Of a stretch of DNA of 38,623 nucleotides, positions 1 to 38,492 are shown piece after piece. A program made the translations under genes and the position numbers. The stretch's first letter is position 1. Each line of letters begins with the position of its first letter. The DNA comes from Bacteroidaceae bacterium. GTDB taxonomy: Bacteria; Bacteroidota; Bacteroidia; Bacteroidales; Bacteroidaceae. The notes below the pieces were generated by a model. The model did not search any database. It was given only the letters and a program-made list of their open reading frames with translations, and was not told the origin of the DNA. Where the stretch lies: positions 179,729 through 218,351 of the forward strand of contig JAFTNZ010000009.1 in NCBI GenBank assembly GCA_017451645.1. The letters are read 5' to 3'.

Positions 1-1
1 G

Positions 2-274
2 AAGGATACTGAGGAGGTTGCGAAGTTCTATAATATAAACGGACGTGAAGGAACCATCCCCGCAGGCAAGTGCTGGCTGAATGTTACGACTACAACTGAC
101 GCTGCGACTGTGACTTGCCTGTTCCGCGGTGGTATAGCCAACAACATCGACGAAGTGATGGTGGACAAGACCACACCGGACGGTGCCATCTACACCCTCG
201 ACGGAAAGCGTGTGAGCCGCATGGAGCGCGGAAAAATCTACATCATCAACGGACAAAAGATAATGGTGAAGTAA
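2..274 (+). CDS. C-terminal end of a secreted or surface protein (partial)
   Basis: The frame is open from the left edge to a TAA at 272-274, giving 90 residues with no start, so the gene begins outside the window. The last ~40 residues read as short beta-strands with the pattern IYTLDGKRV, a turn, GKIYIINGQKIMVK. This terminal module (xYxLDGxxV...GxYIxNGxKxxxK) is common at the ends of large secreted Bacteroides and Prevotella proteins and resembles type IX secretion C-terminal domains. Whether it is a sorting signal here cannot be seen. The catalytic or binding part of the protein lies outside, so no function is offered. The small peptide gene at 324 follows by 49 bp on the same strand and is probably co-transcribed. 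Confidence 0.75.
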   Translation, partial: KDTEEVAKFYNINGREGTIPAGKCWLNVTTTTDAATVTCLFRGGIANNIDEVMVDKTTPDGAIYTLDGKRVSRMERGKIYIINGQKIMVK

Positions 275-323
275 GGAGAACTGACAGAAAAAAGAATTAT
301 AAACAGACAAAAAACAGAATAGT

Positions 324-470
324 ATGAAAAAAGAATTTGTATATGAGGCTCCCAAAGTGGAGGTGATTGAAGTGGCTGTGGAGAAAGGCTATGCCAATTC
401 GTACAGCATCGAAGTGGCAAGCGATGAAGAGGTTGATGTTGACGAGAATGACAAATGGTGGTGCCTCTAA
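324..470 (+). CDS. 48-residue acidic peptide of unknown function
   Basis: ATG at 324, TAA at 468-470. The N-terminus is MKKEFVYEAPKVEVIEVAVE, then KGYANS, then an acidic run (SDEEVDVDEND) and the end KWWCL. There is no signal peptide or membrane segment. From memory, short proteins beginning MKK.Y..P..EV..V..E.G[FY]A.S are frequent, mostly unannotated, next to secreted-protein genes in Bacteroides and Prevotella; this one fits that pattern. It lies 49 bp after the upstream secreted-protein gene and just before two strong hairpins, so it is probably the last gene of that transcript. A substrate peptide of a modification or export system is possible, but no such enzyme is in the window. Function is unknown. 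Confidence 0.7.
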   Translation: MKKEFVYEAPKVEVIEVAVEKGYANSYSIEVASDEEVDVDENDKWWCL

Positions 471-485
471 AGATGTGAGTTGCCA

Positions 486-518
486 CACCTGCAGCGGAAC
501 CGGGTTCTGCTGCAGGTG
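486..518. other. 33-bp near-perfect palindrome (hairpin)
   Basis: The left arm CACCTGCAGCGGAACC and right arm GGTTCTGCTGCAGGTG are separated by a single G. Pairing is complete apart from one G-U wobble, although a few central bases must open to form the loop. It starts 15 bp after the stop codon of the small peptide and 13 bp before the second hairpin. No T-run follows it directly, so it is not an intrinsic terminator alone. It may protect the 3' end of the message or help the following terminator. Confidence 0.6.
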
Positions 519-531
519 ACACATACAAAAG

Positions 532-577
532 AAAAAGAGTGGATGCGCGAAGTGAAGCCGCATCCACTCTTTTTTTC
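532..577. terminator. bidirectional intrinsic terminator
   Basis: A perfect 16-bp stem pairs 532-547 with 559-574 around an 11-nt loop. The outer pairs are A5/T5, so each strand ends in a T-run (T at 570-576 on plus; the A-run at 532-536 on minus). It lies between the plus-strand peptide gene ending at 470 and the minus-strand ATPase gene ending at 606, as expected for a terminator shared by converging genes. Confidence 0.85.
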
Positions 578-605
578 GTATGCTATGGGGGAGGGAATCT
601 GTGAC

Positions 606-1925
606 CTACATGTCTGCCAGTGACAAACCGCTGCAGGTGATGGCGTAGTCTTTGAACTGCCCCGTGGCCTGCAGGAATACCGATGCCTTGGCCTCCAGAG
701 ACGAAGGGATGTATTTGTCGATATTCCGCTTGACCTCAAAAAATGCTGCCGTATTGTCCAACTCGTTTTCGGCCACAAGGTCTATCTCGTTCTCCCCCTT
801 GCGGTCCCACCAACTGCCTATCCGGGTATAGGCATGCTGCCCAATCAGCACCTGCTTGAAGTAGCGCTCGAGCATCAGTCCGCTAAAGACTTCGTAGTCG
901 CGGTTGATGATGGTCTTCAGCCCTTCGTAGTTCTCAATCTCCAACATGTAGTTGTACTTGTAAATGAATCTGAACCAGAAGGTGAAGAAGTTGTCTGCAA
1001 TCGTGTAGCGCACATTCTTTGTTGCGCTCCGCTCAAACAGGGGTTGCCGTTTGGCTATGATTTCGTATTCACTCTCCAACTTGGTGAGGTAGCCGCCAAT
1101 CTGCCTGCCCACAACATCCTCAATGGCGGAGCGTGAGGTCTTGCCTCTGGCAATGGCGGAGAGGATGGAGAAGTAGATACCATAGTCCTTGCCGAACTCT
1201 TCGATGAGGATGGCCTTACCCTCGCCCAAGAATACGGAATCGGCTTTGACAATCTGGTTCAGCATCCTGGTCCGGGTAGTGGCGCCGGCATCGACCAACA
1301 GTTGCACATATTTGGCCACACCTCCCGTAAAGGAATATAGCGCCAACAAATCTTCGGACGTGTAATGGGGATTGTATTCACCCAAGATGTCCTTGAGTAC
1401 AAGGGGAGTAAAGGGACGCACCGTCATGAAGCGGGACTGACGATTATACAGCGGCTCTTTCTTATCCTTGAATATCTTGGTCATCATTGAATAGATGGAA
1501 CCGCAAACGATGAGGTTGATACGCGCTCTTGTATGGTACATGTCCCAAATGCGCTGCATCTCACCATAGATGGCCTTGTTCACACGGAAGAATTCCTGGA
1601 ACTCATCGATGAACAGTGTGATGGGGCGCTCGACTGACAGCTTCATCAGGAACTCGAAGATGACGGGGAAACGCTCGACACGCCCCATAGCAGGGATGCC
1701 AAGTTTATGCTCTACCTCCTGCATATAGTCTTCGCACAGCTCGCTTTCTGCCTTGCGCACAACGAAGAAGTAGAGTATAGGCTCGTCCTCGTAGGCTTTC
1801 CACACAAGCGATGTCTTGCCTATGCGACGGCGACCGGTGACTACGGTAAACTGTGCATTGCTCATGGCCATTCGGCGTATCTCACGCAGCGATGCTATCT
1901 CTTCTGTCCTATCAAAAAATCTCAT
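606..1925 (-). CDS. ATP-binding protein, ATPase_2/AAA_14 type with DUF234-like C-terminus
   Basis: 439 residues from the ATG at 1925. The P-loop GRRRIGKTSL lies near residues 31-40 and Walker B ITLFIDEFQEFF near 103-114. The C-terminal third has EIDLVAE followed about 10 residues later by FFEVKR, the PD-(D/E)XK-like arrangement seen in DUF234 domains. These are STAND/AAA-related NTPases common in archaea and in multiple copies in Bacteroides; their cellular role is unclear. The frame stays open upstream to a TTG at 2003, but that TTG is part of the promoter -7 box (2001-2008), so it cannot be the start. ATGs at 1949 and 1925 remain, and 1925 gives the usual N-terminus MRFFDRTEE. The gene appears to be transcribed alone and ends at the shared terminator. 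Confidence 0.85.
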   Translation of the reverse strand: MRFFDRTEEIASLREIRRMAMSNAQFTVVTGRRRIGKTSLVWKAYEDEPILYFFVVRKAESELCEDYMQEVEHKLGIPAMGRVERFPVIFEFLMKLSVERPITLFIDEFQEFFRVNKAIYGEMQRIWDMYHTRARINLIVCGSIYSMMTKIFKDKKEPLYNRQSRFMTVRPFTPLVLKDILGEYNPHYTSEDLLALYSFTGGVAKYVQLLVDAGATTRTRMLNQIVKADSVFLGEGKAILIEEFGKDYGIYFSILSAIARGKTSRSAIEDVVGRQIGGYLTKLESEYEIIAKRQPLFERSATKNVRYTIADNFFTFWFRFIYKYNYMLEIENYEGLKTIINRDYEVFSGLMLERYFKQVLIGQHAYTRIGSWWDRKGENEIDLVAENELDNTAAFFEVKRNIDKYIPSSLEAKASVFLQATGQFKDYAITCSGLSLADM

Positions 1926-1964
1926 ACGGCAACTCGTTTTGCTATTCATTAGACAATCATTTCC

Positions 1965-1994
1965 GAAACGGCTGTTTCCGAAACGGCTGTTTCG
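1965..1994 (-). repeat. two 15-bp direct repeats, each a mini-hairpin, in the ATPase leader
   Basis: GAAACGGCTGTTTCC occurs twice back to back (1965-1979 and 1980-1994; the second copy ends TTTCG). Each unit is GAAAC-GGCT-GTTTC, a 5-bp inverted repeat with a 4-nt loop. With the -7 box at 2001-2008 on the minus strand, transcription should begin near 1994-1996, so the transcript would start with these two small hairpins. They could be an operator, an mRNA 5' stabiliser, or chance. Confidence 0.6.
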
Positions 1995-2000
1995 CAACTG

Positions 2001-2031
2001 CAAATATAACGCACTTTATTGATATGGCCAA
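2001..2031 (-). promoter_or_regulatory. Bacteroidales promoter for the ATPase gene
   Basis: On the minus strand, TTG (2031-2029), 20 bp, then TATATTTG (2008-2001) match the TTTG-N19-21-TAnnTTTG form. The -7 box overlaps the first possible TTG start of the frame, which excludes that start. Confidence 0.65.
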
Positions 2032-2056
2032 GCGATGAGCCGAGAATGTTGCTTTT

Positions 2057-2386
2057 TAGTGACTAGCGGATAGTGACTAGCGACTAGCGGATAGCGACTA
2101 GGGGATAGCGGATAGTGACTAGCGACTAGCGGATAGTGACTAGCGACTAGCGGATAGCGACTAGGGGATAGTGACTAGCGACTAGCGGATAGCGACTAGG
2201 GGATAGCGGATAGCGATTAGTGACTAGCGACTAGCGGATAGTCACTAATCACTCTAGTCACTAATCACTAGTCACTCTAATCACTAGTCACTAGTCACTC
2301 TAATCACTAGTCACTAGTCGCTAGTCACTAGTCACTAGTCGCTAGTCACTAGTCACTCTAATCACTAGTCGCTAGTCGCTAGTCAC
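2057..2386. repeat. 330-bp bidirectional heptamer array (46 units)
   Basis: Every unit begins with TA. Bases 2057-2238 are 26 uninterrupted heptamers of the form TAGYGAC, TAGCGGA or TAGGGGA, with a higher-order order (TAGTGAC-TAGCGAC-TAGCGGA recurs). Bases 2239-2386 are 20 heptamers TARTCRC with four TC dinucleotides inserted (2253, 2276, 2299, 2357). TAGTCAC is the reverse complement of TAGTGAC in repeat register, so the second arm is inverted relative to the first and the whole could fold into a long imperfect hairpin. The array ends inside the ribD coding frame, supplying its last codons and stop. There are no spacers, so it is not a CRISPR array. It lies just upstream of the ATPase promoter. 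Confidence 0.95.
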
Positions 2387-3380
2387 TAAAAAAGCTCGGT
2401 GCCGGCACGCCACTCCCTAAGGAGAAAGGAGCCGTCTCGATGCGGACTTCATCCCAAAGCCCTGCATCCAAGAAACTCTGCAGCAGGGTGGTGCCTCCCT
2501 CTACAAGCAGCGACTGTACCCCACGGGCATAGAGGAAGGAAAGCATCTGAGGCAATATGTCGCGACTGAAATCGAGGGTGCAATACTCCACCCCCGGACG
2601 GGAAGGCAGATGGGAGGAACGTGAGGTGAAGACCAGGGTGGGATGTGCCCCATCGAACAGATGAAGTCCGGCAGGCAAGGTAAGGTCGCGGTCGATGACC
2701 AGCCGCAAAGGCTGCGGGCCGGACCAATGGCGCACGGTGAGCGAAGGATTGTCGAGCAGTGCCGTCCGCCTGCCCACAAGGATGGCCTGCACACCGGCAC
2801 GCAAGCGGTGTACCTGCATGGCGGTGTAGGGGGTGGAAAAGACTACCGGCGGCTCTTCGGAAGAACTCCGCACACGGTCGATGAAGCCGTCAGCCGACTG
2901 TGCCCACTTCAGCAGGATGTAGGGCCGGTGCTGCAGATGAGAGGTGATGAAACGGCGGTTGATATTCAGACACTCCTGCTCCAACACACCCACGGTGACC
3001 TCCACACCCGCACGGCGGAGTTTCTCTACCCCACGACCCGAGACTTCTGAAAAGGGGTCGATACACCCCACCACCACACGGGGGATGCCCCGCGAAAGAA
3101 TCAGGTCGGCACACGGCGGAGTCTTGCCATGATGGGAACAAGGCTCCAGACTGACGTAGATGGTGGACCGGCTGAGCAAGGGCTCGTCCGCCGGCTTCAC
3201 CGAACGCACGGCATTGACTTCGGCATGGGCCTCGCCGCAACGGATGTGATAACCTTCTCCAATGATGCGACCGTCGCACACGATGACAGCCCCCACCATC
3301 GGGTTGGGAGCTGCGCCACGCCTGCCGCAACGGGCCAGTTGCAGGCAACGGGCCATGTATTTCTCGTCTTCACTCTTCAT
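2379..3380 (-). CDS. ribD: riboflavin biosynthesis deaminase/reductase RibD, C-terminus altered
   Basis: RibD converts the GTP-cyclohydrolase II product by deamination and then reduces the ribosyl chain, a cytoplasmic step of riboflavin synthesis. From the ATG at 3380 it has 333 residues; a GTG at 3401 would add seven. The N-terminal deaminase zinc site is complete: H52-A-E54 and PCSHHGKTPPC with C81 and C90. The reductase domain follows from about residue 145 (RPYILLKWAQSADG) to LLVEGGTTLLQSFL and LGSGVPAP. The protein then ends at once with SFFSD, whose last two residues and TAG stop are encoded by the heptamer array. Family members usually continue some 15-40 residues, so the last strand looks lost or replaced. 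The divergent neighbour is prmC. Confidence 0.92.
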   Translation of the reverse strand: MKSEDEKYMARCLQLARCGRRGAAPNPMVGAVIVCDGRIIGEGYHIRCGEAHAEVNAVRSVKPADEPLLSRSTIYVSLEPCSHHGKTPPCADLILSRGIPRVVVGCIDPFSEVSGRGVEKLRRAGVEVTVGVLEQECLNINRRFITSHLQHRPYILLKWAQSADGFIDRVRSSSEEPPVVFSTPYTAMQVHRLRAGVQAILVGRRTALLDNPSLTVRHWSGPQPLRLVIDRDLTLPAGLHLFDGAHPTLVFTSRSSHLPSRPGVEYCTLDFSRDILPQMLSFLYARGVQSLLVEGGTTLLQSFLDAGLWDEVRIETAPFSLGSGVPAPSFFSD

Positions 3381-3395
3381 TTTCTTATTCCTTTC

Positions 3396-3427
3396 TTGCA
3401 CGATTCAGGGCAAATTCACTATCTTTG
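3396..3427 (+). promoter_or_regulatory. Bacteroidales promoter for prmC
   Basis: TTG at 3396-3398, 21 bp, then TATCTTTG at 3420-3427, matching TAnnTTTG. It lies 31 bp before the prmC ATG, in the space shared with divergent ribD. Confidence 0.7.
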
Positions 3428-3458
3428 CCCGCAAAACAAACTCTGATATTATCCCGCT

Positions 3459-4310
3459 ATGCCCCATCTCATCGCCCGCATACGCACTGCCCTACAAGGC
3501 ACCTGTCCGCCCGAAGAGGCCACAGCCATCGCACGGCTGCTGGCGGAAGAGCTGTACGGACTCAGCCAACCGGACATTTACATGGGCAAAGATAGGAAAT
3601 TATCGGAAGAAGAACTGCATAATCTGGAAAATATTCTCGCACGGCTGCAGAATCATGAGCCGGTACAGCATGTCTTGGGCTATGCCGACTTCTGCGGGGG
3701 GAGGTTCAGAGTGAACGGCCACGTGCTGATACCACGCCCGGAGACAGCCGAGCTGGTAAACCTTATCCTGCAGGACTACCCTTCTCCACCGGCACGGGTG
3801 CTCGACATCGGCACGGGCAGCGGCTGCATCCCCATCACACTGGCACGCCACTGGCCGGAGAGCGACATCCATGCCTGGGACATCTCGCCCGAAGCGATAG
3901 AGACCGCACGCTGCAACAATGCCCTGCATGCTACCCGAGTGACCTTCCGGGAGTGCGACATCCTGCACGGCGAGAGTGGTGACGTGCCCCCCTTCGACCT
4001 CATCGTCAGCAACCCTCCCTACATCAAGGAGACCGAGCGGACAACAATGGAGCGCAACGTGCTCGACTGGGAGCCTCATCTGGCCCTCTTCGTGCCCGAC
4101 AACGACCCGCTCTGTTTCTACCGCGCCATAGCCTCTCGCGCTGCTGCCGGCCTGCTGCTCTCCGGAGGAAGGCTCTATTTTGAAATCAACCGTGCCCACG
4201 GGGCCGACACTGCGGCCTTGCTCGAAGCATACGGGTTCGCAGATGTGGAGCTGCTGAAAGACCTCTCGGGCAACGACCGCATCGTGCGGGGCATCCACCC
4301 ATGGGAATAG
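3459..4310 (+). CDS. prmC: release factor glutamine methyltransferase PrmC (HemK)
   Basis: PrmC methylates the glutamine of the GGQ motif of peptide-chain release factors using S-adenosylmethionine. The 283-residue length is usual. The family start of the catalytic domain, IPRPETAELV, is at 91-100. The SAM site DIGTGSGC is at 116-123, and the catalytic NPPY is at 185-188. The N-terminal ~80 residues form the helical release-factor-binding domain. The start is the ATG at 3459, 31 bp after a good promoter. The gene appears to be transcribed alone and ends 35 bp before a strong hairpin facing the converging DUF2795 gene. Confidence 0.95.
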   Translation: MPHLIARIRTALQGTCPPEEATAIARLLAEELYGLSQPDIYMGKDRKLSEEELHNLENILARLQNHEPVQHVLGYADFCGGRFRVNGHVLIPRPETAELVNLILQDYPSPPARVLDIGTGSGCIPITLARHWPESDIHAWDISPEAIETARCNNALHATRVTFRECDILHGESGDVPPFDLIVSNPPYIKETERTTMERNVLDWEPHLALFVPDNDPLCFYRAIASRAAAGLLLSGGRLYFEINRAHGADTAALLEAYGFADVELLKDLSGNDRIVRGIHPWE

Positions 4311-4345
4311 AGGATAATCTTTCCTTCAGCATACAGAGAAAATGA

Positions 4346-4389
4346 GGGGCTGCATCCTGCCTGCCTGACGGCAGACGGGATACAACCCC
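4346..4389. terminator. hairpin between convergent genes
   Basis: A 20-bp stem (17 of 20 pairs, one of them G-U) joins 4346-4365 to 4370-4389 with the loop TGAC. It lies between prmC (ending 4310) and the minus-strand gene ending at 4433. No strong T-run follows on either strand, so termination is inferred from position and stem strength. Confidence 0.55.
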
Positions 4390-4432
4390 ATATCCGGATT
4401 GTTCTTTCAATGACTCTCAGTGCCGAGCCTCA

Positions 4433-4654
4433 TCAATATTCATCTTCGTCGAAGAAGAAGTCCTCCTTGCTGGGATAGTCCGGCCAAATATCCTCTATCG
4501 ATTCGTAGATTTCACCTTCGTCTTCTATTTCCTGCAGGTTCTCTATCACTTCGAGGGGAGCGCCTGAACGCACCGCAAAATCAATCAATTCATCCTTGGA
4601 AGCCGGCCAAGGAGCATCCTCCAACTTGGATGCCAATTCCAATGTCCAATACAT
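4433..4654 (-). CDS. DUF2795-type small acidic protein
   Basis: 73 residues starting MYWTLELASKLEDAPWPASK and ending in a very acidic tail (EDFFFDEDEY). The core KDELIDFAVRSGAPLEVIENLQ is the DUF2795 pattern, a short helical domain. I recognise it as a conserved Bacteroides protein of about this length; its function is not known. There is no signal peptide or membrane segment. It follows the cobalamin adenosyltransferase gene by 47 bp and also has its own promoter overlapping that gene's 3' end, so it may be expressed both ways. Confidence 0.85.
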   Translation of the reverse strand: MYWTLELASKLEDAPWPASKDELIDFAVRSGAPLEVIENLQEIEDEGEIYESIEDIWPDYPSKEDFFFDEDEY

Positions 4655-4681
4655 AATTCTCGCTATTTATTAATTAGGCCG

Positions 4682-4711
4682 CAAAAATAAACAATTTATT
4701 CTCAATTACAA
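4682..4711 (-). promoter_or_regulatory. probable promoter for the DUF2795 gene
   Basis: On the minus strand TTG (4711-4709), 19 bp, then TATTTTTG (4689-4682). It lies across the 3' end of the adenosyltransferase gene, with the ATG 28 bp further on. Confidence 0.55.
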
Positions 4712-5259
4712 GCTTTATCCCAGAAAAAATCACTGCAATGGGCCATACTGTTCGTTTTACGTGCCAAAACAAACAAATAGTCCGACAAACGGTTCAAGAA
4801 TGAGAGTATTTCCACCTCTACCCGGACACCGGCTTCGGCCATGGCCAACACGCGCCTTTCCGCCCTGCGGCAGACGGTGCGGCAGACATGGGCCACAGCG
4901 CCGGCATGGCACCCGCCCGGCAAGATAAATGAATGCAGGGGAGGAAGACCTTCCTGCCCCTTGTCTATCATCTGCTCGATGCGGACAACATCCTCTCCGG
5001 TCAGGCGGGAGAGTTTCGCCCAGTAGGGAGAGTCTTCCTCGGTAGCCAACCGCGTGCCGGCCACAAAAAGCATACCCTGTACCCAACGCACATCCGCCAC
5101 GTCGGACTCTTCGGACAAGAGGGAGGAGAGCAGCCCCAACTGGGCATTCAACTCGTCGAGCGTGCCGTATGCCTCGAGGCGCACGTGGGTCTTGGCCACA
5201 CGTGCGCCTCCAACGAGGCTGGTTGTCCCTTCATCTCCGGTTCTGGTATATATCTTCAT
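4702..5259 (-). CDS. pduO: PduO-type ATP:cob(I)alamin adenosyltransferase
   Basis: This enzyme transfers the adenosyl group of ATP to cob(I)alamin, making coenzyme B12 for enzymes such as methylmalonyl-CoA mutase. 185 residues is usual. The N-terminal ATP-binding pattern TRTGDEGTTSLVGG is at 5-18, then R27-L-E-AYG-T-LDELNA. The C-terminal RRAERRV and LNRLSDYLFVLAR are the other two signature regions of the PduO/MMAB family. It is five bases downstream of the GH28 gene and probably co-transcribed. No cobalamin riboswitch is visible in front of it. PduO type, rather than CobA or EutT type, is certain from these motifs; the gene name is a family label. Confidence 0.93.
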   Translation of the reverse strand: MKIYTRTGDEGTTSLVGGARVAKTHVRLEAYGTLDELNAQLGLLSSLLSEESDVADVRWVQGMLFVAGTRLATEEDSPYWAKLSRLTGEDVVRIEQMIDKGQEGLPPLHSFILPGGCHAGAVAHVCRTVCRRAERRVLAMAEAGVRVEVEILSFLNRLSDYLFVLARKTNSMAHCSDFFWDKACN

Positions 5260-5264
5260 TGCGC

Positions 5265-6881
5265 TTAAAGTTCTACGCTCTGTGCCTTGAAGCCTATCTC
5301 GGCATATTCCTTGCCATCCACTTTCAGGTTCTTGGCATTGTTCACCCGCAGGAGGTCGCTGCCATCCACCGTTTCGATGCGCACATTCTCGAATGTCACA
5401 TCCTCGGCCTGACTGACAACAATACCTTTCTTGGCATCGGTGATTACCACATTCTTCACCACCACATTCTTCACAGGCATCTCAGGCAAACCGTTGAAGA
5501 ACATTGCCCGTCCGTCGGTGCCCTTGCAATTGACGTTGGAGATGAAAATGTTGCGGAAAGCCGGGGTCTCTTCCGTAACAGCCGGAATGGCAGCACGCAT
5601 GCGGGCAGCCACTTCCTCGTCGGTCTCCTCTCCGGCTCCCTTGCCTCCATAGAAGAGGTCGAAAAGGAGCGGCTCGTTGGGAATGTCAATCATGTTGATA
5701 TTGTCGATGTAGATGTTCTCCACCACGCCACCGCGTCCGCGTGTGCTCTTGAAGCGGAGACCCACATCGGTGCCCAGGAAAGAGCAGTCGGACACGTAGA
5801 TGTTCTTCACACCGCCTGACATTTCGCTACCTACCACGAAACCACCATGCCCGTGGAGCACCACATTGTTCTTCACCACTACGTTTTCACAAGGGATTCC
5901 ACGCTCACGCCCGTCCTTATCCTTTCCGGACTTGATACAGATGGCATCGTCGCCTGCATCGAACAGGCTGTTGATGACCAAGGCATTCTTGCACGACTCC
6001 AGGTCGAGGGCATCGCCATTCTGCGAATACCAGGGGTTGAACACCTTCACACGGTTGAGTGTGATGTCTTCACACATCAGAGGATGCAGACACCATGCGG
6101 GAGAATTCTTGAAAGTGGCATCCTGCAACAACACGCGCTTGCAACGCACGAAACTGAGGAGTACGGGGCGCAGCCAGGGGCGAACTTCGTCCCACTCGGC
6201 TTCTGTGGTGAGTCCTTCGGGGGTGTTGAACTGCTTGGTGGCCTTGGCTCCCTTCAGCGAACCTTCGGTAGGATACCACACATTGCCTTCGACCACACCG
6301 CCACCATTGACGAGTTTCTTCCACTGCCCATCGGTCATCTTGCTCTTCTTCACAGGACGCCAGCTGTCGCCTGAACCATCGAAAACACCCTGTCCGGTGA
6401 TGGCAATGTTCTCGGCATCATAGGCGGACAGAGGTGACTGGCAACGACGTGTGTTGAGTCCCTCGAACGAAGTGTCCAGAATGGGATAGAGCATGAAATC
6501 GTCAGAAAACACCACCAGGGCATTTGCCTCGGCATGCAGATTGACATTGCTCTTCAGCACAATGGGACCGGTGTACCAGATACCGGCAGGGATGACGACT
6601 TTTCCGCCACCTTTTTCACTGACAGCGGTGATGGCCTTGTTGATTGCCTCGGTATTGAGAGTCACCCCATCACCCTTGGCACCGAAATCCACGATGCTCA
6701 CCTGGTAATCGGGGAAAGAGGGCTGCTTCACAGCCTCCATCTCGAACGGAAGATTTTCATACACCGAGGGACAGATTCCCTGCTGTTGGCAAGTGGGTTG
6801 CTGCGTAGGGACTTGTGTGCAAGCCTGGAGTGCCGCAACGGCAAGTAGCATCATGGCTACGTTCTTGAGCGTTTTTTTCAT
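5265..6881 (-). CDS. GH28 polygalacturonase-like lipoprotein
   Basis: 538 residues. A lipoprotein signal ends at LQAC with C21, so the protein should be anchored in the envelope. VSIVDFGAKGDGVTLNTEAI (61-80) is the usual start of the right-handed beta-helix of family 28. The catalytic set is complete: N288-x-D290, D311-D312, H345 in GHG, and R376-x-K378. Family 28 members cleave galacturonan or rhamnogalacturonan from pectin, exo or endo; the exact substrate cannot be told. No SusC/SusD pair or other pectinase is nearby. It sits in a run of housekeeping genes (46 bp after the methyltransferase-like gene, 5 bp before the adenosyltransferase), which is odd for a polysaccharide enzyme. Confidence 0.92.
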   Translation of the reverse strand: MKKTLKNVAMMLLAVAALQACTQVPTQQPTCQQQGICPSVYENLPFEMEAVKQPSFPDYQVSIVDFGAKGDGVTLNTEAINKAITAVSEKGGGKVVIPAGIWYTGPIVLKSNVNLHAEANALVVFSDDFMLYPILDTSFEGLNTRRCQSPLSAYDAENIAITGQGVFDGSGDSWRPVKKSKMTDGQWKKLVNGGGVVEGNVWYPTEGSLKGAKATKQFNTPEGLTTEAEWDEVRPWLRPVLLSFVRCKRVLLQDATFKNSPAWCLHPLMCEDITLNRVKVFNPWYSQNGDALDLESCKNALVINSLFDAGDDAICIKSGKDKDGRERGIPCENVVVKNNVVLHGHGGFVVGSEMSGGVKNIYVSDCSFLGTDVGLRFKSTRGRGGVVENIYIDNINMIDIPNEPLLFDLFYGGKGAGEETDEEVAARMRAAIPAVTEETPAFRNIFISNVNCKGTDGRAMFFNGLPEMPVKNVVVKNVVITDAKKGIVVSQAEDVTFENVRIETVDGSDLLRVNNAKNLKVDGKEYAEIGFKAQSVEL

Positions 6882-8056: not shown

Positions 8057-9349
8057 TTACAGCCCGAATGCCTCTTTTACCTGCTCCACATAGTCGAGCT
8101 TTTCCCAAGTGAAGAGCTCCACTTCGATATCCTTATCACCTTCGTAGCGGCTGCGGAACTGCTTGGTGACCACTTCAGGCTTGCGCCCCATATGGCCGTA
8201 AGCTGCGGTCTCCTGATAAATGGGGTTGCGCAACTTCAGACGGTCTTCGATGGCACGCGGGCGCATGTCGAAGAGTTCGTCCACCCGACGTGCAATCTCG
8301 CCGTCGGTCATACCAACATGGCTGCGGCCATAGGTGTTCACATAGATATTGATGGGGCGTGCCACACCGATGGCGTACGACACCTGCACCAAAACCTCGT
8401 CGCTGACACCGGCAGCCACCAGATTCTTTGCTATATGACGGGCTGCATAGGCGGCACTGCGGTCCACCTTCGAAGGATCTTTGCCAGAGAATGCGCCACC
8501 TCCATGAGCACCCTTTCCGCCGTAAGTATCTACGATAATTTTGCGTCCGGTCAACCCGGTGTCGCCGTGAGGTCCTCCAATGACAAACTTGCCTGTAGGA
8601 TTCACATGGTAAGTGATGTGGTCGTTGAAGAGGGCCAACACCTTCTCGGCATGAATGGAGGCAATGACACGCGGCATCAGAATATTGATGACATCCTGAC
8701 GGATGATGGCCAGCATCTCTTCGTCAGCCTTCAGTCGGGCCTCTTCGGTATCGTCTGCCGGCTGTATAAAGTCGTCGTGCTGGGTAGAGACCACGATGGT
8801 GTCGATGCGCACGGGACGGTTGTCGTCGTCGTACTCAATGGTCACCTGACTCTTGGCATCGGGACGCAGATATGTCATCACTTTGCCCTCCTTACGGATG
8901 TCGGCCAGCACTTGCAGGATACGGTGTGAAAGATCGAGCGACAGGGGCATATAGTTCTCCGTCTCGTTGGTGGCATAGCCGAACATCATGCCCTGATCTC
9001 CGGCGCCTTGCTCCATGGGGTCCTGACGCTCCACACCGCGATTGATGTCGGGACTCTGCTCGTGAATGGCACTCAACACACCGCAAGAGTTGCTCTCGAA
9101 CATATATTCGCCTTTGGTATAGCCTATCTTCTTGATGACCTCGCGGGCAATGAGTTGCAAATCCACGTAAGCCTTGGTCTTCACCTCGCCGGCTATCACC
9201 ACCTGCCCGGTGGTCACCAGTGTTTCGCAAGCGACCTTCGACTGAGGGTCGTAAGCTAATAATTTGTCCAATACCGCGTCCGAAATCTGGTCGGCCACTT
9301 TGTCGGGGTGTCCCTCAGACACCGATTCGGATGTAAACAGATATCCCAT
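8057..9349 (-). CDS. metK: S-adenosylmethionine synthase MetK
   Basis: MetK makes S-adenosylmethionine from methionine and ATP. The 430 residues are longer than the ~385 of E. coli, as is usual in Bacteroides. Visible signatures are [13 protein letters not shown] from residue 13, [12 protein letters not shown] near 116-127, and the P-loop-like [16 protein letters not shown]. The start is the ATG at 9349 ([13 protein letters not shown]). The 5' leader is about 160 nt and carries a SAM-II-like aptamer near its 5' end, which would give feedback control by the product. It is the first gene of a minus-strand block extending to 4433. Confidence 0.97.
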
Positions 9350-9447
9350 CTTTCTCTTTCTTTTAGTTAAGTGTAATAAATGAACCTGAGAAACTTCCTG
9401 GGGAAACGAGAGTGGGTAGTAAATGATGCACGCAATCGTCTTTCCGA

Positions 9448-9500
9448 CTGTTTTTTAGCATTTTTTACTGTGGTTGCAAGCTGCCCAAATCTTTCCACAT
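9448..9500 (-). ncRNA. candidate SAM-II (metA-type) riboswitch in the metK leader
   Basis: Read on the minus strand, P1 is UGUGG (9499-9495) pairing with CCACA (9473-9469). The 21-nt loop contains GAUUUG (9492-9487) and CUUGCAA directly before the closing arm. After P1 come GUAAAAAA and GCUAAA (9459-9454). This order (P1, GAUUU, about 8 nt, UGCA, P1', A-rich stretch, GCUAAA) is what I remember of the SAM-II consensus and of the Sargasso metX structure. The pseudoknot arm is weak by eye; only 3-bp options (GCA/UGC or AGC/GCU) are seen. Position before metK and at the predicted 5' end of the transcript supports the call. A covariance search is decisive. Confidence 0.68.
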
Positions 9501-9513
9501 TGGTTTTCGGCTG

Positions 9514-38425: not shown

Positions 38426-38492
38426 AGTTTGCCTTACGTCTTTTTTTAGTTTGCCTTGCTCTTTTTAAAATTTGGCTTTAATTGTCTTTTTG
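38426..38492 (+). repeat. three imperfect 22-23-bp direct repeats
   Basis: Copies start at 38426, 38448 and 38470. The first two share AGTTTGCCTT and then a short GC-containing stretch with a T-run. The third is weaker (ATTTGGCTTT). Each begins with a TTTG element at 22-bp steps. They end 31 bp before the ATG of the partial gene at 38524. Confidence 0.6.

Follow-up and report, generated by a model that had tools for sequence, protein, structure and literature searches.

A large inverted heptamer array at the 3' end of ribD and related extragenic palindromes in Bacteroidaceae

The stretch of DNA that we analysed (the window, 38,623 nucleotides at its full length) carries, at the 3' end of a ribD gene, a large array of heptamers arranged as two inverted arms. 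We estimate a probability of about one half that this array is a large member of a dispersed set of Bacteroidaceae extragenic palindromes, which act as 3'-end hairpins in the manner of REP/BIME elements, have grown by slippage and have been kept paired. Our analysis identified a palindrome, an inward polarity of TAG-type arms, a placement mostly at the 3' ends of genes, and one site that is free of an array in relatives. We also observed that the two arms of one site share units and usually pair better than arms taken from different sites, and that a 23-nt apex is common to stems of different 7-mer families in Bacteroides. The stem sequence changes from site to site; the seven-letter rhythm and the pairing of the arms persist.

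We propose that a transcript of either strand would fold into a long stem with its foot at the stop codon of the preceding gene, because the arms are inverted copies of 7-nt tandem arrays, and that one DNA palindrome could in this way provide a hairpin at the end of either transcript. The hairpin would slow 3'-5' decay and damp read-through. Slippage would add or remove 7-nt units of the stem, and complementarity would be maintained either by selection for pairing or by template switching between the arms, a process described in PMC8794818 as creating and maintaining hairpins. TAG-type units hold TAG and in many cases TGA as well. Repeated at a period of 7, they would give a stop in every frame, so that arrays could survive in intergenic gaps and would often provide a gene with its stop codon. 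In the window, the ribD message would end with the palindrome, before a promoter-like site of an ATPase gene is reached. An effect of the hairpins on mRNA, if real, would mean that a 3'-end device has been overlooked in common gut bacteria.

Architecture and setting of the window array

Parsing of the sequence into units placed the array at positions 2057-2388 (332 bp), with the following arms:

2057 to 2238, plus strand: left arm, 26 tandem 7-mers of the TAGYGAC/TAGCGGA/TAGGGGA type in unbroken register (unit parse, TRF)
2239 to 2388, minus strand: right arm, 20 units of the same unit family, an inverted copy of the left arm (alignment, fold, inverted repeats)

The sequence-only reading had described 46 heptamers, 26 of them in one sense in unbroken register and 20 in the reverse-complement sense with four TC insertions, and a switch of sense at 2238/2239. 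The unit parse agrees on every one of these points. Read as its reverse complement, the right arm consists of sixteen 7-mers and four 9-mers (TAGAGTGAC three times and TAGAGTGAT once), the 9-mers being the four insertions, and its innermost 7-mer is followed by two extra bases at the switch. That reading had also given an extent of 2057 to 2386 (330 bp), of which the start is right and the end falls short by two positions. The left arm is made up of TAGCGGA (8 units), TAGCGAC (8), TAGTGAC (6), TAGGGGA (3) and TAGCGAT (1). We counted 35 occurrences of TAGYGAYTAGYGAYTAG at up to two mismatches in the window, compared with 0.03 expected, and none of 100 shuffles reached the observed count; a chance origin of the repeats is excluded. 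TRF scores of the array ranged from 150 to 207.

For most of their length, the two arms can be aligned as inverted copies that have a higher-order register of ~35 bp in common, with a TAGGGGA unit of the left arm facing a TAGAG insertion in the right arm. RNA folding of the minus strand, the direction of both ribD and the next gene, gave -207.9 kcal/mol, compared with -103.4 kcal/mol (sd 5.5) for 100 dinucleotide shuffles (z -18.9). The arm alignment and the fold together confirm the earlier description of the locus as self-complementary. That description had not noted that each arm is an inverted copy of the other, nor the uniform polarity, the stop codon that the array gives to a shortened ribD, or the larger family with one apex and varied stems. 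The innermost 42 nt of the arms paired no better than swapped arms in an arm-swap test, and the apex core discussed below is absent from the window array. The array is an oversized member of its hairpin family, with a copy number that rests on a draft assembly (72.6% complete, 38 contigs, 2.5 Mb).

The array is bordered by the following features:

2379 to 3401, minus strand: ribD (deaminase/reductase), shortened at its C-terminal end (ORF list, profiles, alignment of relatives, TIGR00326)
606 to 2003, minus strand: ORF with domains ATPase_2 and DUF234, located downstream of the array in the same direction as ribD (ORF list, domain profiles)
2003 to 2031, minus strand: promoter-like site, TTGGCC-17-TATATT then TG, between the array and the ATPase gene

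The ribD frame enters the array and ends at the TAG of the second unit (2379-2381). The match of the window RibD to TIGR00326 ends at position 307 of 343, its match to the RibD_C profile ends at 170 of 197, and the RibD proteins of all 11 aligned relatives extend 18 to 33 residues further, as counted from the alignment. Since RibD is longer in relatives and both profile matches are short, the comparison indicates that the end of ribD was removed by the array or by the event that made it. The window therefore shows what an array can cost: RibD, an enzyme of the riboflavin pathway, ends early inside it. Such shortening is not the rule. Among 31 proteins whose stop comes from an array, we scanned 10, and nine of these reached to within 4 positions of the profile end; the tenth, an LRR protein, was uninformative. 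We rejected truncation of proteins by arrays as a general effect on the basis of these nine, the window RibD being an exception.

Translation of the ATPase ORF probably begins later than the listed TTG at 2003, more likely at an ATG at 1949 or 1925. The promoter-like site may resemble the Bacteroides -7 box. A 15-mer repeated 2.3 times without mismatch lies at 1960-1993, between the promoter-like site and the probable ATPase start. Past the ATPase gene, at 532-574, an 11-nt loop separates the halves of a perfect 16-nt inverted repeat that has A/T ends and looks like a terminator. Between positions 1700 and 2700 of the window we found no intrinsic terminator-like site, and no T-tract at the array.

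We observed a strong ribD match in 11 relatives from the same genus, and an array at none of these 11 loci. The relatives' ribD loci have 65-74% DNA identity, and the sequence on the ATPase side was unmatched within the ~1.5 kb fetched, indicating that the array site is a synteny break; we therefore rejected it as a clean empty site. Plasmid carriage of window positions 1-6000 was unsupported by megablast.

Polarity, placement and occurrence of related arrays

We measured the relative orientation of adjacent opposite TAG-type arms in loci that had been fetched with one-arm patterns and are hence unbiased with respect to order. All 31 pairs pointed inward and none outward. A pattern for the inward order was found at 9 places in 8 of 301 genomes, and a pattern for the opposite order in 0 of 301; in viral contigs, the inward order was found at 4 places in 3 contigs and the opposite order at none. 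The opposite-order pattern served as the control because a reversed TAGTGAT pattern reads the same backwards and is unfit for that use. Inward polarity, as measured on TAG-type arms, was constant in convergent, co-directional and divergent gaps. In the L288 and GAGCTAC stems, we read the stops as lying on the 3' arm. Inward heptamer palindromes also occur in contigs filed as viral (L300 and L301, IMG/VR).

The gaps that hold arrays were classed for 64 of 69 sites, five having been dropped: 46 were co-directional, 12 convergent and 6 divergent, compared with 10, 3 and 11 of 24 array-free control gaps of at least 60 bp from the same loci. Divergent gaps were thus rarer for arrays than for controls (Fisher p 3.4e-4). 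Within co-directional gaps, the median distance of the array was 1 nt to the upstream stop codon and 55 nt to the next start codon, with ORFs taken from longest-ORF calls, such that single distances may be wrong. The array was nearer the 3' end in 36 of these 46 gaps (p 1.6e-4) and supplied the stop codon of the gene in 20 of them. Of 35 one-arm arrays in co-directional gaps, 24 were in sense orientation (p 0.04). The sequence-only reading had proposed that a dispersed element would be supported by the same arrays at other intergenic sites, always at 3' gene ends; such sites were found, and most are at 3' ends, but "always" is too strong, with 6 of 64 sites in divergent gaps.

The source draft genome contains 7 array sites. 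Within the genus, a strict C-type three-unit pattern matched only this genome (1 of 15), a looser three-unit pattern matched G002 as well, and relatives are mostly without such arrays. Across the family, three tandem TAGYGAY units were found in 10 of 399 genomes, and in Bacteroides a two-unit pattern gave 63 matches in G268, 95 in G327 and 38 in G375. The suggestion of an expanding, dispersed repeat family is thus supported by the seven sites of the source genome, the dozens of matches in some Bacteroides and the placement at 3' ends, though within the genus the strict C-type pattern was restricted to one genome. Named contigs contained at least 119 stretches with inward TAGTGAY pairs, a pattern that plain 10-bp hairpins also match; Bacteroides, Flavobacterium, Parabacteroides, Selenomonadaceae, Oscillospiraceae and others were among the matches listed.

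Some loci depart from the architecture of the window. Three Candidatus Nomurabacteria MAGs among the matches listed (L061, L098 and L110) have palindromes in which another 7-mer, TAGGTTC, flanks TAGTGAC units. Arms can be very unequal, as in the bipartite array of a Prevotellaceae MAG (L150), where a 3' arm of 31 units is set against a 5' arm of 4. In G327, a TAGTGAT-type arm often stands opposite an arm of the 8-mer CTACTTGA (L228, L230, L232, L236 and L238), and AT-rich 7-mers (AATTCAT, AATTTTT) directly precede start codons, indicating that whole gaps can be filled by arrays of period 7 or 8.

Arm pairing and a shared apex in Bacteroides

Rare units were common to both arms of a site more often than in shuffled data (Jaccard index 0.247, compared with a mean of 0.082 and a maximum of 0.150 in 1000 shuffles). 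In 34 of 48 TAG-type sites, own arms had stronger pairing than the average swap, with a mean difference of -3.6 kcal/mol over the sites (Wilcoxon p 4.6e-5). G375 and G268 share an orthologous gcvH gap, with flanks that are 86% identical. The units in this gap differ between the two genomes, the arms match within each, and the own pairings (-70.8 and -50.6) are stronger than the swaps (-64.7 and -37.3). An orthologous site with different units in different species amounts to a natural repeated experiment on the origin of stems and on the upkeep of their pairing, by template switching or by selection.

We also examined Flavobacterium, in which hairpins recur at the same operon gaps (L087, L113, L126 and L134; L067, L128, L131 and L178). 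We read these gaps as atpA-atpG and clpP-clpX, names taken from the ends of the sequences and not from a profile search. At the atp gap of four species, own arms had no advantage over swapped arms (-26.5 versus -26.7). Double (compensatory) pair changes were seen at 4 of 22 pairs in one of three Flavobacterium gap alignments, at 2 of 23 in another and at 0 of 21 in that of the clpP-clpX gap.

A 23-nt apex, GGCTGCGCTATNATGCCGCATGG, was found at up to two mismatches in 11 of 60 Bacteroides genomes, at up to 16 places per genome. The 38 apex sites, which include orthologous duplicates such as L290/L295, carry at least six 7-mer stem families (TAGTGAT, GTTGAAA, ATGAAGA, GAGCTAC, TATTAGG and TTTGAAT) and one 8-mer family; one site, L333, lacks periodicity. 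The best period of the left arm was 7 in 33 of the 38 and 8 in three, and at 31 of these sites own-arm pairing ranked in the top 10% of swaps. The 8-mer stems, of AATGTGCC type, had no stops in the listed arms. None of 37 loci had the apex inside an ORF. After two of these were dropped, the remaining 35 sites fell into 14 convergent, 18 co-directional and 3 divergent gaps, and the apex lay 20-39 nt past the stop codon in 15 of the 18 co-directional sites. At a further site in the source genome (L003), pieces resembling GCCGCATGG lie between the arms of an array.

Alternative explanations and known systems

The main rival to a hairpin with a function is a selectively neutral by-product, in which a 7-mer that stands near a stop codon by chance is expanded by replication slippage, one arm is copied onto the other by template switching on hairpins, and the resulting DNA survives only between genes, mostly past stops, without a function. 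The patchy occurrence of the arrays in the family and of the C-type pattern in the genus, the turnover of units between species at the gcvH gap, the early end of ribD at the window array and the capacity of template switching to make and maintain hairpins (PMC8794818) are all consistent with this origin. We nonetheless consider it rather unlikely, given an apex that is conserved across stems of different sequence, a near-constant distance from apex to stop codon, the constant polarity of TAG-type arms, and hairpins at the same gap in several Flavobacterium species.

Spread of a non-autonomous, REPIN- or MITE-like palindrome by a transposase, with arms that later drifted by slippage, is improbable in our view. 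The L265 element of G268 is absent from five relatives inspected, whose gap is a clean empty site (other genomes also match both flanks), and several genomes hold dispersed matches to the element alone, some 80-90 bp long and about 75-90% identical; these observations, and the presence of up to 16 apex copies per genome, are as expected for mobility. In several relatives the L265 gap holds another hairpin (L304: CCCCTGCAAAA-TTTTGCAGGGG), part of which is replaced by the L265 element, followed by T8, so the change looks like the substitution of one 3'-end hairpin for another. Copying of whole elements would not give different stems around one apex, and an informal look revealed no constant end sequence or target duplication. 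The RAYT/Y1 transposase domain PF01797 was found in only 3 of 20 genomes (G375, G414 and G403), was absent from the array-rich G268, G327, G426 and G413, and was not found in the source genome (G000, 72.6% complete). A RAYT mobiliser is thus unsupported, as PF01797 does not track the elements.

About as improbable is a distinct genetic element with a fixed 23-nt apex (in Bacteroides) and paired stems that the cell or a dedicated enzyme builds in 7-nt steps, with a new stem sequence at each site. Either the 7-nt steps would be synthesised on hairpins in a templated or ratcheted way, or a factor would bind the apex and require a stem that is paired, has a period of 7 and is anchored at a stop codon, whatever its sequence. 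The array of the window would be a runaway product of this process, lacking the core.

We attach very little weight to the possibility that the arrays are stop-codon buffers, whose period-7 stops in all frames catch frameshifted or read-through ribosomes, with pairing being incidental. The TAG and frequent TGA of TAG-type units, the array-supplied stops at 20 of 46 co-directional sites and the sense-direction bias of one-arm arrays would fit such a role; the stop-free 8-mer stems of AATGTGCC type and the 3'-arm location of stops in L288 and in GAGCTAC stems would not, and pairing and apex would be left unexplained. An assembly artefact or wrong copy number in a short-read draft, in which a 332-bp repeat exceeds the common read length, is hardly credible, since the units are rich in variants and the same architecture is found in single-contig G268 and in named isolate records.

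The preferred reading, a REP/BIME-like 3'-end hairpin, has its nearest parallel in REP sequences. Counting against it are the scarcity of T-tracts, the six sites in divergent gaps, own arms that pair no better than swaps at the Flavobacterium atp gap and in the inner 42 nt of the window array, the 0 of 21 double changes at clpP-clpX, a window array that lacks the apex core, hairpins in Flavobacterium operon gaps and genus relatives that are largely free of arrays. Like REP, BIME and REPIN elements (PMC3733652 and PMC3116915), the palindromes are extragenic, present in many copies and able to form hairpins, as fold, placement and copy counts attest. The TAG stop codon of an ORF beside a REP is often part of the REP terminus (PMC3733652), and TAG arrays of the window type likewise supply TAG stop codons; REPIN pairs are kept by compensatory changes (PMC3116915). 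By contrast with all three, the stems described here consist of tandem arrays with a period of 7, and these vary between sites. The GTAG (or CGTC) tag of REP was lacking beside the apex, where the bases are variable (gtta, aatt, aagt, agta and others, in 38 rows compared by eye), as was an associated RAYT (Y1) transposase in the 20 genomes scanned.

PMC4679880 describes TAACTGA repeats as intergenic direct repeats of a 7-nt unit with stops in all forward frames, located mostly near start codons in the main genome described, and of patchy occurrence that includes some Bacteroidetes, with long arrays in a few of these. The arrays studied here share the 7-nt period, the intergenic site and the stops in all forward frames. 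They differ in being inverted pairs, mostly at 3' ends, with other units and many unit families, and they have neither the TAACTGA unit nor its direct-repeat arrangement near start codons.

A hairpin after a stop codon or between convergent genes also resembles an intrinsic (Rho-independent) or bidirectional terminator, as at L265, where the element stands at the place of a different hairpin in relatives and is followed by T8. The hairpin is stable by folding. A T-tract directly after the stem was absent at the window array, and elsewhere one lay within 18 nt of the 3' arm in 18 of 76 cases, a count made without a control set; we therefore found no support for a U-tract terminator as the rule. 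Some Flavobacterium hairpins lie within what we read as operon gaps, where full termination is unlikely. By the marks tested, the arrays are members of neither the REP nor the U-tract terminator family.

The heptanucleotide STRR sequences of cyanobacteria are 7-nt tandem repeats between genes, and the arrays resemble them in this respect. Earlier work has described both extragenic palindromes and tandem arrays of 7-nt units. We found no description in the open-licence literature of a family with a conserved apex and differing paired 7-mer stems, which supports novelty weakly. At Rfam 15 gathering scores there was no match in 16 array or apex loci and none at the window array, the only matches elsewhere in the window being to tRNA and SAM-II. 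The SAM-II riboswitch (56.6 bits, 9445-9504, minus strand) lies ahead of a minus-strand ORF at 8057-9349 that we read as metK, and a short tandem repeat of a 21/22-mer is located near the end of the window, at 38426-38478.
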